Positions 6,632 to 19,178 of a stretch of 45,902 bases of DNA are shown one piece after another. Within the stretch, counting starts at the first letter, position 1, and each line of letters starts with the position of its first letter. Position numbers and translations under genes: made by a program. The notes beneath the pieces are model-generated. The model was not told where the DNA came from. It saw only the letters and a list, made by a program, of their open reading frames with translations, and did not search any database. The DNA comes from Lachnospiraceae bacterium (GTDB taxonomy: Bacteria > Bacillota > Clostridia > Lachnospirales > Lachnospiraceae): NCBI GenBank assembly GCA_024696005.1, contig JAILHF010000034.1:1-45902 (forward strand), in the 5' to 3' direction.

Positions 6632-6817
6632 CAAACATAATAAACCGGATACCGATCTCTGCTAATTGACTCCTAGCAAAGCTAGGTGGGCGACCGCAAT
6701 CAGAACTTCTGCCTTCCACTGATAGTTGCTGAGGCCTGACATCCGCCTGACAATATAGGAATCCCGTTTAAAGTACTGTAGGCTCAACACGCAGAGACCT
6801 TTTTCCGGTATCCGGAC
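6609..6817 (-). ncRNA. ssrS: 6S RNA (RNA polymerase sigma-A antagonist)
   Basis: A transcript of about 180-210 nt is defined by a strong promoter on one side and an intrinsic terminator on the other. Its 5' end (CCGGATACC, then TCTCTGC) pairs with its 3' end (GCAGAGA, then GGTATCCGG), giving the long interrupted closing stem of 6S RNA. A central hairpin region (GGCG...TCAG-GCCT with AGGC...CTGA...CGCC) forms the terminal arm. A perfect CCTAGC-TTT-GCTAGG hairpin lies in the 3' strand of the central bubble, as in many Firmicute 6S RNAs. 6S RNA mimics an open promoter and binds housekeeping RNA polymerase. The identification rests on structure and gene organisation; a covariance-model search was not possible here. 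Confidence 0.75.
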
Positions 6818-6823
6818 AAGCTT

Positions 6824-15194: not shown

Positions 15195-16973
15195 ATGCCC
15201 CGTTATTCGGAGGAATTGCTGGAGGAGATTCGGCAGAAAAACGACATCGTTGACCTGATCTCGGGCTATGTGAACCTGAAGAAGAAGGGCAGGGATTATT
15301 TCGGGCTCTGTCCGTTCCATTCGGAAAGGACCGGCTCGTTTTCGGTCTCGCCCTCGAAGCAGATGTACTATTGCTTCGGCTGCCACGCTTCCGGCTCGGT
15401 CTATACCTTCATGCAGAAGCACGAGAGCATGAGCTTTCCCGAGGCGGTGCAGTTTCTGGCGGACAAGGCAGGCGTGAAGCTGCCCGAGATCAAGGAAACG
15501 GAAGAGATGGTCCGTGCCCGCAGCCGCAGGGAACGGCTGTACGATATCAACGAAGCGGCCGCGGAATACTATTTCTGCTGCCTGCGCGCTCCGGGCGGAG
15601 AGCTGGGGCTGCGCTATTTTGAAAAAAGAGAGCTGGACCGCGAGACCATGAACCGTTTCGGTCTGGGCTATGCAAGCCAGGACAGTTCGCGGCTTGTGGC
15701 CTACCTGAAGCAGAAGGGCTTTACGGCGGACGAGATGCGTGCGGCCGGGCTGGCCTCCTTCAGCGAGAAGTACGGCCTTCACGATTTCTTTTTCAACCGC
15801 GTGATCTTTCCGATCATGAACGGTTCGGGAAAGGTGATCAGCTTCGGCGGGCGTGTGATGGGCGACGGCGAGCCCAAGTACCTGAACACGCAGGAGACCG
15901 AGATCTTTGAAAAGGGGAAGAACCTTTACGGACTGCACATCGCGAGGGGAAGCAGGGCAAAGAACTTCATCCTCTGCGAGGGCTACATGGATGTGATCAG
16001 CCTGCACCAGGCGGGCTTCACGCAGGCCATGGCTTCCCTGGGAACGGCTTTCACGATACACCACGCCAACATCCTGCGGCGGATGAACCGCGAGATCCTC
16101 CTGTCCTACGACAACGACGGAGCCGGAAGGATGGCGGCCATCCGGGCGCTGCAGATGCTGCGCCGTGTCGGGATCCGGGCACGCGTGATCGATATGCAGC
16201 CCTACAAGGATCCGGATGAATTCATAAAGAACCTCGGCACCGAGGAATACGAAAAACGCATCGAGAATGCCGAGAACGGTTTTCTCTTTGAGATACGGAC
16301 GATACGCTCGGATTACGACACGTCCGATCCCGGCGGGAAGACGGAATTTGAACGCGAGATCGCAAGAAGACTCTGTTCCTTCGAGGAAGAGATCGAAAGG
16401 AACAATTATCTGGAAACCATAGCAGAGGAATACGGCATCCCGAAGGATGTGCTGCGCAGGCAGGTCATTGCGGAGGCGGAAAAGAGCGTGCGGACCGACC
16501 CGGAAACGGAAGAACAGGAATTTGTTCCCCGTCCCGGCGAAACGCGCCGGTCAGAAGACCAACGAAAATACGCCCAGCGTGTGCTGCTTACCTGGCTGTC
16601 CGAGGAGCCGAAACGATACGGGACCATACGCGGGATCATTACTGCGGAGGATTTTACCGATCCCGTATACCACAGGATCGCAGAGCGCTTGTTCCGCGAC
16701 ATGGAGGAAGGACCGCCTAATCCGGCAGCGATACTCAACATGTTTGAGGACGCTGACGAGCAGGAGGAGGCTGCGGCGGTCTTCCACACCAGACTGGCTG
16801 CGATCGTGACAGACGAGGAAAAAGAAAAAGCGTTCCGCGATGTAGTCGTGCGGATCAAAGAAGAGCGTCTGGAACACGATCAGAACCTGAGCGGTGAGGA
16901 AAAGATCCCCTTGAAAGCGATCCTGGAACAGAAACGCATACTGGAGGATCTGCGCAAGCAGAGCAGATTATGA
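15195..16973 (+). CDS. dnaG: DNA primase
   Basis: A 592-residue primase that makes RNA primers for replication. The N-terminal CHC2 zinc site reads CPFH followed by CFGCHASG (residues about 38-65). The RNA polymerase core follows, with a Toprim domain carrying CEGYMDVISLHQAGF and LSYDNDGAGRMA, whose acidic residues bind metal. The C-terminal part should bind the replicative helicase. It is the middle gene of the classic macromolecular-synthesis cluster: 19 bases after dgt and 15 before rpoD. Confidence 0.96.
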   Translation: MPRYSEELLEEIRQKNDIVDLISGYVNLKKKGRDYFGLCPFHSERTGSFSVSPSKQMYYCFGCHASGSVYTFMQKHESMSFPEAVQFLADKAGVKLPEIKETEEMVRARSRRERLYDINEAAAEYYFCCLRAPGGELGLRYFEKRELDRETMNRFGLGYASQDSSRLVAYLKQKGFTADEMRAAGLASFSEKYGLHDFFFNRVIFPIMNGSGKVISFGGRVMGDGEPKYLNTQETEIFEKGKNLYGLHIARGSRAKNFILCEGYMDVISLHQAGFTQAMASLGTAFTIHHANILRRMNREILLSYDNDGAGRMAAIRALQMLRRVGIRARVIDMQPYKDPDEFIKNLGTEEYEKRIENAENGFLFEIRTIRSDYDTSDPGGKTEFEREIARRLCSFEEEIERNNYLETIAEEYGIPKDVLRRQVIAEAEKSVRTDPETEEQEFVPRPGETRRSEDQRKYAQRVLLTWLSEEPKRYGTIRGIITAEDFTDPVYHRIAERLFRDMEEGPPNPAAILNMFEDADEQEEAAAVFHTRLAAIVTDEEKEKAFRDVVVRIKEERLEHDQNLSGEEKIPLKAILEQKRILEDLRKQSRL

Positions 16974-16988
16974 AAAGGAGCGAATGAC

Positions 16989-19178
16989 ATGGCTTCAAAA
17001 GACAATAAGAAGAACGTGAATAAGGCGGCAGCCGGAAAGGCAGCAGCACCCGCAAAGAAGAGCGCGGCGGCTGTTAAGAAGACGGCAGCGCCCGCAAAGA
17101 AGGCAGCAGCACCTGCGAAGAAGGCGGCAGCGCCGGCAAAGAAAGCGGTGGCAGCACCCGCGAAGAAGGCGGCTCCGGCAAAGAAAGCGGTGGCAGCGCC
17201 TGCAAAGAAGGCGGCTCCGGCAAAGAAAGCGGTGGCAGCACCGGCAAAGAAGGCGGCTCCGGCAAAGAAAGCGGTGGCAGCACCTGCAAAGAAGGCAGCA
17301 CCTGCAAAGAAGGTGACGGCGCCCGCAAAGAAGACCGTGGCAGCTCCCGTGAAGAAGTCGATGAGCGCAGCGGAGAAGGCAGCATTGGAAAAGAAGAAGG
17401 CAGCCGAGAAGAAGGCGGCTGAAAAGGCGGCGCTGGAGAAGAAGAAAGCAGCCGAGAAGGCGGCTTTGGAAAAGAAGAAGGCTGCCGAAAAGAAGGCAGC
17501 TGAAAAGGCGGCGGCAGAAAAGAAGAAAGCGGCCGAAAAGGCAGCATTGGAGAAGAAGAAAGCAGCCGAGAAGAAGGCAGCTGAAAAGGCGGCGGCAGAA
17601 AAGAAGAAAGCGGCCGAGAAGGCAGCTTTGGAGAAGAAGAAGGCAGCCGAAAAGGCAGCGGCCGAAAAGAAGGCGGCGGCAGAGAAGAAAGAAGCCGAGA
17701 AGAAAGCGGCAGCAGAAAAAAAGGCAGCGGAGAAAGCAGCATTGGAAAAGAAGAAAGCGGCAGAAAAAGAGGCGGCACAGAAGGGCGCGGCCGAAAAGAA
17801 AGCTGCGGAGAAAAAGACCGCAGAGAAAAAAGCAAGTGACAAGAAACAGGATAAAGCAGCAGAAGGGGAGATCACGGAAGAAAACGTGACACCCGAGAAC
17901 ATACAGATCCTTTTTGACGAAAAGCTGGCACGCCTTCTGAACGGGGCGAAAAAGACCGGCTTTGTGGAGTACCAGGAGGTCATTGACACCTTCTCGATCC
18001 TGAACCTGGACGAGGAGCAGTTTGACCGCATCTGGGATGCGCTGGACAAGAACCGCATCGTGCTCCGCATCGAGCAGTCCGAGGACGACGAGATCCCCGA
18101 GGACGAACTGGCGATGGAAGAAAGCGCCGAGATCGACCTGGATATCGAAAACCTGGATACGGCGACGCTTTCCGAAGGAACGAACATCGACGATCCCGTC
18201 CGCATGTACCTGAAAGAGATCGGCCGGGTGCCCCTGCTTTCCGCCGAGGAAGAGATCGAACTGGCAAAGCGCATGGAAGCCGGCATTGAAGCCGAGGAGA
18301 AGAACAACGATCTGGAAGCAAAGCTGGAAAAGCTGAAGAACCAGGAGAAGGACGTAAAGAAAAAGAACGGCGGCAGGCTTCCGCAGGAGTATACGAAAAA
18401 GAAGAAAGACCTGGAGGCCAAGATCGCCGAGAACAGGAAAAAGATCGAGTCGGGAAAGAGTGCCGGCAAGGATCTGTCCCAGGCGAACCTCCGTCTGGTC
18501 GTGAGCATCGCAAAGCGTTATGTGGGACGCGGCATGCTGTTTCTGGATCTGATCCAGGAAGGAAACCTGGGTCTGATCAAGGCTGTGGAAAAGTTTGATT
18601 ACCGCAAGGGATACAAGTTCTCCACCTACGCGACCTGGTGGATCCGTCAGGCGATCACCAGAGCCATCGCGGACCAGGCAAGAACGATCCGCATCCCGGT
18701 GCACATGGTCGAGACGATCAACAAGATCATCCGCATCAACCGCCAGCTCCTTCAGGAACTGGGCCGTGAGCCTTCGCCCACGGAGATCGCGGAGCGCATG
18801 GACATACCCGAGGAGCGTGTCCGCGAGATCCTTAAGATCGCGCAGGAGCCCGTTTCGCTGGAAACGCCCATCGGTGAAGAGGAAGACAGCCATCTTGGCG
18901 ACTTCATCCAGGACGACAACGTGCCGGTGCCTGCGGATGCGGCTGCATTCACGCTTCTCAGGGAGCAGCTGGACGAGATCCTGGATACGCTGACCGACCG
19001 TGAACGCAAGGTGCTTACCCTGCGCTTCGGCCTGATCGACGGACGTGCGCGTACGCTCGAAGAGGTGGGCAAAGAGTTCTCCGTTACCCGAGAGCGCATC
19101 CGCCAGATCGAGGCAAAGGCACTGCGCAAGCTGAGACACCCGAGCCGCAGCAAGCGGATCAAGGATTATCTGGATTGA
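16989..19178 (+). CDS. rpoD: Primary sigma factor RpoD with long Lys/Ala-rich N-terminal extension
   Basis: A 729-residue housekeeping sigma-70. Residues from 295 on are a normal Firmicute SigA: region 1.1-like segment, region 1.2 ([16 protein letters not shown]), region 2 ([16 protein letters not shown], then [19 protein letters not shown]), region 3, and region 4 with the -35 HTH ([20 protein letters not shown]). Residues 1-294 are extra. Residues 1-124 are AAPAKK repeats like histone H1 tails; 125-290 are [15 protein letters not shown] repeats likely to form a long charged helix. The start is supported by AAAAGGAG seven bases upstream, so the extension is meant to be translated. Usual Clostridia homologues are about 360-400 residues. 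Region 2 also contains an unusual lysine-rich insertion ([18 protein letters not shown]) after region 1.2. Confidence 0.95.
17145..17312 (+). repeat. Four 42-bp tandem repeats in rpoD
   Basis: Near-identical 42-bp units start at 17145, 17187, 17229 and 17271, each coding [14 protein letters not shown] (the last unit varies slightly). As the unit is a multiple of three, slippage would change protein length without breaking the frame. Further, less regular AEKK-coding repeats continue to about 17850. Confidence 0.9.

Follow-up and report, generated by a model that had tools for sequence, protein, structure and literature searches.

Evidence from sequence for a lysine- and alanine-rich N-terminal arm on the housekeeping sigma factor of some Clostridia

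Introduction

HC2/HctB, the Burkholderia H1-like proteins and AlgP, whose likeness to the protein described here is one of Lys/Ala(/Pro) repeat composition, are free-standing proteins, and the N-termini of actinobacterial HrdB/SigA are Lys/Ala-rich. The best functional precedent for a basic arm on a transcription protein is Myxococcus CarD, which still works with its HMGA-like tail swapped for histone H1 or for the disordered H1 C-terminal region (PMC8156234, available excerpts). As in the present case, a disordered Lys/Ala/Pro-rich tail is carried by a protein that binds RNA polymerase, although CarD is an accessory regulator with a C-terminal tail whose DNA binding has been measured (PMC4374960, available excerpts), whereas here the protein is a primary sigma factor and its arm is read from sequence alone.

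Among primary sigma factors, the N-terminus of Mycobacterium tuberculosis SigA, ahead of region 1.2, is likewise long (about 225 aa) and disordered; according to the excerpts of the paper available, this protein still transcribed and complemented after the loss of 42, 92 or 132 N-terminal residues, with no significant difference in promoter binding (PMC10011835). Such tolerated deletions call for caution before an essential role is assumed for the arm. The critical residues of the mycobacterial N-terminus are an acidic stretch, 132-179, and its region 1.1 is described as “not well defined”, whereas in our protein a region 1.1 can be identified after the arm; the same excerpts do not mention lysine or alanine for the SigA N-terminus (PMC10011835).

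No such extension in a Firmicute sigma factor was found among the titles and abstract openings listed, a set that covers the subscription literature thinly and is therefore weak evidence of absence. In kind, the arm described below belongs with the disordered basic tails already known from transcription proteins, as a variant of them; it is unusual in being sited on a Clostridia primary sigma factor, in resembling H1 in its make-up and in appearing repeatedly.

The sigA locus and the sigma core

The window, that is, the whole stretch of 45,902 nucleotides that was analysed, encodes a complete SigA with a predicted size of ~80 kDa, calculated from its residue count (Table 1). Its ATG lies 15 bases after the dnaG stop codon (16971-16973). 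An earlier note on this DNA had described an in-frame, well-started extension of 294 residues ahead of a complete SigA, and both the coordinates and the length were right, as judged from the ATG, the Shine-Dalgarno sequence and the Pfam regions. The gene adjoins dnaG. As it is the only RpoD-like gene found in the genome at E<=1e-60, the main holoenzyme would carry the extension; the same note had supposed this of every holoenzyme.

Table 1. Features of the sigA locus, in positions of the window
Feature	Position	Strand	Details and basis
dnaG (DNA primase), upstream neighbour	15195..16973	+	translation; neighbour checks in relatives
Shine-Dalgarno AAGGAG	16975..16980	+	8 nt 5' of ATG 16989; read from sequence and scored
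SigA/RpoD ORF	16989-19178	+	729 aa, complete; translation
PAKK repeats	16989..17360	+	residues 1-124; charge +34; predicted disordered
AEKK/ALEKKK repeats	17361..17870	+	residues 125-294; charge +24; partly helical in model
Sigma region 1.1	17916..18131	+	residues 310-381; Pfam PF03979, E 4e-7, over cut-off
Acidic linker ahead of region 1.2	18069..18191	+	residues 361-401; disordered in AlphaFold model
Sigma region 1.2	18192..18293	+	residues 402-435; Pfam PF00140
Lengthened spacer, regions 1.2 to 2	18294..18479	+	predicted helical hairpin
Sigma regions 2, 3, 4 and stop codon	18480..19178	+	Pfam PF04542, PF04539, PF04545; TIGR02393

Regions 1.1, 1.2, 2, 3 and 4 follow each other in order, all five above the Pfam cut-offs (region 2 at residues 498-566, region 3 at 575-651 and region 4 at 665-717), as in a primary sigma factor of group 1. 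The TIGR02393 model (RpoD_Cterm) was passed with 401.3 bits for a cut-off of 354, the full-length model NF006666 was narrowly missed (570 bits for a cut-off of 572), and the score for NF004560 (PRK05901.1-1), which we take to represent the actinobacterial sigma type, was 448 bits, below its cut-off of 711.

Region 1.1 has been kept downstream of the extension and is well predicted by AlphaFold (pLDDT 75-86 for residues 301-360). The linker that follows has a charge of -16 (residues 360-401), and residues 295-401 together reach -23. The distance from the start of region 1.2 to region 2.1 is 97 aa, compared with 41 in most other aligned loci, and the additional residues are modelled as a hairpin with helices at 419-460 and from 466 on (pLDDT 75-92 for residues 421-500). 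This spacer also varies in other loci, with lengths of ~70-99 in some, 137-146 in L101 and L103, and 257 in L215.

Composition and translation of the extension

The extra segment ahead of region 1.1 (residues 1-294) contains 93 Lys and 118 Ala, with a net charge of +58. Composition and charge counts agree with its earlier division into 124 residues of PAKK repeats (35 K, 54 A, 14 P, 0 E and 1 D) and a remainder of AEKK type (58 K, 64 A and 32 E). The second half is far less basic than the first, and the term “cationic arm” consequently suits residues 1-124 best; applied to the whole extension, as in the earlier note, it fits less well. Lys and Ala together make up 78% of the richest 100-residue stretch of SigA. 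No other of the 142 stop-to-stop frames of at least 100 aa in the window exceeds 50%, and the one that attains this value has only 3% Lys.

The AlphaFold model, which was built from 27 aligned sequences and reached a mean pLDDT of 59 and a pTM of 0.29, was used for disorder and helix only. On that basis, residues 1-142 are inferred to be unstructured (pLDDT about 36-45 in residues 1-124) and the stalk that follows to be partly helical, with low-confidence helices at 143-171 and 205-262. Charged pairs at i,i+4 are more frequent than in shuffled sequences (29, against a shuffled mean of 20.7, with 36 of 2000 shuffles as high), a count to be read with the low confidence of the modelled helices in mind; pairs at i,i+3 are not unusual (435 of 2000 as high). 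The Ala/Glu/Lys repeats of residues 125-294 resemble TolA domain II and single-alpha-helix repeats. TolA spans the periplasm, and the match to it in the PDB search was weak (E 0.078), with no significant homology.

The repeat arrays are built of 42- and 81-base units, and their differences suggest that the extension is translated and kept as protein. At period 14, 11 of 11 single-base differences between units are synonymous where 3.3 would be expected (54 codon pairs); at period 27, the figures are 23 of 25 and 7.3 (87 codon pairs). None of 5000 simulations reached the observed count for either period, in a test that sets aside the 5 codon pairs per array that differ at two or more bases, and in which pairs from neighbouring repeats are not independent. 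Lys codon choice is the same in the arm and in the neighbouring genes (AAG 0.77 in both). By contrast, Ala codons are skewed towards GCA (0.48 in the arm vs 0.18 in the neighbouring genes), as expected from a recent spread of repeats. The synonymous bias and the start site together rule out a chance or wrong frame.

It could be argued that SigA begins near residue 290-300, by internal initiation or processing, the upstream part being unmade or clipped, since armless relatives start just ahead of region 1.1. However, the window sequence has no ATG near residues 290-300, and the nearest in-frame GTG, at 17886 near the end of the extension, has its GGAG badly spaced at 15 nt. Position 16989 is the best-scoring start, candidates inside the extension being weaker, and the synonymous bias lies within the arm itself. 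We regard this explanation as very improbable, with some small chance left for clipping.

Likeness to known domains and other proteins of the genome

The arm is a Lys/Ala/Pro-rich low-complexity sequence, as in H1-like and HC2 proteins, and the description “histone H1-like” holds by composition, but not by profile. None of the H1-like profiles scored past its cut-off (HC2, 13.4 for 40; NF038053, 22.1 for 80), and the scores obtained come from the AEKK half, the PAKK half matching no model. Searches of Pfam, NCBIfam and the PDB returned only weak, compositional matches, and homology to a known domain was consequently rejected.

Repeats like those of the arm were found in one other protein of the genome at E<=0.001, with 150 of 242 first-look candidates scored, and a general habit of this genome of adding PAKK tails was rejected on that count. 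The protein in question, of 309 aa and of the DUF6465 type (L190:1051-1980, + strand, in G000:C23), has AVKKEAAPAKK-type repeats and is encoded directly upstream of a putative hrcA-like gene.

Distribution in the genus

The genus survey covered 35 genomes, with readable N-termini in 28. A cationic extension is present in 15 of the 35 (loci L009-L021, L029 and L048) and absent from 13, namely L022-L027, of near-normal length, and L039-L045, with a divergent SigA; thus, sigma function does not in general depend on the arm. The remaining seven (G008, G009, G011, G012, G024, G025 and G033) gave no match at the threshold, or only one interrupted by the end of a contig or by a stretch of N; the G024 fragment (L201) begins without an extension.

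Extension length, counted as residues above 112 ahead of region 1.2 (an arbitrary cut-off), ranges from 49 to 391 residues in the genus, the longest having an open 5' end. The length table comprises 164 of 181 rows, after removal of 11 in which region 1.2 or 2 could not be recognised and of six duplicate loci (L001, L154, L178, L186, L188 and L189). Net charge is positive in all 15 extended members (+7 to +94). All 13 with a closed 5' end begin at an ATG that has a Shine-Dalgarno match of at least 5 bases, although the script used favours ATG and Shine-Dalgarno sequences and so biases the choice of starts; the 5' end is open in L013 and L014, and L013 was given a later start on second reading.

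In the seven divergent loci (L039-L045, from G004, G028, G021, G034, G003, G027 and G002), the best RpoD-like match has 61-62% identity to the core of the window protein, and neither dnaG nor trmK was found in them. In the six dnaG loci read (L202-L207, from G004, G028, G002, G009, G034 and G027), no sigma gene separates dnaG from the trmK that comes after it, G004 having another short ORF there. It seems that the housekeeping sigma gene of the L039-L045 members has left its usual place and diverged.

Distribution in the family and class

The family sample comprised 140 genomes, each at least 90% complete, with a best-match frame listed for 130. Twelve of these frames have at least 450 aa, and all twelve were read. 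Cationic extensions were found in at least eight, from eight genera (the window, G119, G106, G140, G177, G173, G151 and G100), a minimum because not all frames under 450 aa were read. A further cationic case, G264 (L167), is among the matches listed from a larger sample of 299 genomes. Beyond the genus of the window, cationic extensions occur in eight genera of the family (L154, L167, L168, L170, L173, L208, L209 and L211). The N-terminus of the G119 protein is the same as that of Shuttleworthella satelles L093, and four loci titled Butyrivibrio (L062, L064, L066 and L067) have Lys-rich extensions.

Extra length need not mean nucleic-acid binding, as Asp/Glu-rich N-terminal extensions also exist on SigA. 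Within the family sample they were read in G154, G196 and G210, and G148 has a short basic tract only; in all, acidic extensions with net charges of -25 to -49 (L169, L171 and L210 of these genomes, and L156 of G309) span at least four other genera.

The class sample had 147 genomes, 142 of them outside the family. Nine non-family best-match frames have at least 450 aa; seven were read, and the other two (G443 and G397) share a genus with one of those. G464 (L216), from another clostridial family, has a long EPAKKA-type arm and G356 a short Lys tract, the others read being acidic, ordinary, or long for another reason. L216 contains a pair of adjacent sigma-70 genes on the same strand, one for the 803-aa product with this arm and the other for a product with an acidic N-terminus.

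A survey of RpoD N-termini in relatives had been proposed in the earlier note, which supposed that related Clostridia might share the extension. Cationic extensions do recur, in 15 genus members, in eight further genera of the family and in a second clostridial family, and are absent from other members of the genus. That Firmicute SigA normally lacks such an extension is true, by length, of most frames listed, although the exception recurs. As far as sequences can tell, the arm is genuine, recurrent and fast-changing on the housekeeping sigma factor. Parsimony on a sigma-core tree gave 11 changes of the cationic label (L168 having been labelled by hand and re-read afterwards), with only 8 of 147 inner branches starred, and the labels, compared between cationic and acidic rows only, clustered no more than shuffled ones (106 of 500 as low). 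Consequently, the tree was not used for counting gains.

A possible electrostatic tether

The reading that we favour, with chances about even, is that the arm is a disordered, cationic tether that would attach the holoenzyme to DNA or RNA electrostatically and independently of sequence. In this putative mechanism, the PAKK repeats would form a disordered arm, joined to a normal region 1.1 by a partly helical stalk of AEKK repeats. In the holoenzyme, the arm would contact DNA (or RNA) at sites other than those touched at the promoter. Such binding would concentrate polymerase locally on the nucleoid and aid promoter capture, and the acidic region 1.1 and linker would keep free sigma from binding to the same extent. 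Charge and composition would be kept, with little constraint on length or on the exact repeats.

The sequences provide the frame, the start site, repeats conserved as protein, the retained region 1.1 and the recurrence in relatives. Together with the Shine-Dalgarno sequence, the synonymous bias, the Lys codons, the positive charge in 15 of 15 members and, by analogy, the CarD precedent, the start site and the recurrence in other genera give the tether roughly one chance in two. By contrast, the armless genus members, the acidic extensions, the tolerated M. tuberculosis SigA deletions and the Ala codon skew speak against it.

The main rival is that slippage and recombination in a Lys/Ala codon tract have produced a tolerated expansion of repeats, an arm with no function of its own in which selection only bars disruptive residues. 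The variation in length within one genus, from 0 to several hundred residues, the arrays of 42- and 81-base units, the armless members and the acidic extensions that arise elsewhere are consistent with such an origin. However, an expansion of this kind fits poorly with a charge that is positive in every extended genus member and with a similar Lys/Ala composition in eight other family genera and one other family, and with just one other repeat protein among the candidates scored, the genome does not seem generally prone to such repeats. We therefore hold it to be rather unlikely, if still a serious competitor.

In another alternative, the arm would fold onto the acidic region 1.1 and linker, tuning the auto-inhibition of sigma or the exit of region 1.1 from the RNA polymerase cleft. 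The neighbouring segments are indeed oppositely charged, region 1.1 is matched by Pfam in the window and in 4 of 4 other armed proteins scanned (L208 lying below the cut-off, with 20.0 vs 22.5 bits), and the critical mycobacterial residues, in the excerpts cited above, are acidic (PMC10011835). Nevertheless, acidic linkers are also found in armless relatives (e.g., L145 and L150), the acidic extensions of L156, L169, L171 and L210 would act oppositely, and the model, given its pTM, contains no trustworthy contact. An intramolecular gate of this kind is, in our opinion, improbable.

Provided that the arm binds nucleic acid, each transcription start at a main promoter in these bacteria would use a polymerase with a built-in histone-like tether. 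More tentatively, the housekeeping sigma factor of gut Clostridia may have acquired cationic H1-like arms several times over, and these may have been lengthened or lost quickly, setting how tightly the holoenzyme is tethered to the nucleoid or clustered on it. Sigma itself would then count among the nucleoid-associated proteins, and evolution could tune it through the length of its arm. The genus offers a natural series of closely related members that share a similar sigma core and differ in the arm, from none to several hundred residues, which suits the question of how a disordered cationic tail alters promoter search and polymerase clustering.

Other components of the genome

The delta subunit (PF05066) was not found in the genome, and HU has three family matches, the one read having no tail. 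Elsewhere in the window, and with nothing that ties it to the SigA arm, positions 6639-6820 of the minus strand give a full-length, sub-threshold match to 6S RNA (29 bits for a gathering threshold of 46.4, E about 7e-4), and a possible 6S RNA gene would lie there between two ORFs.
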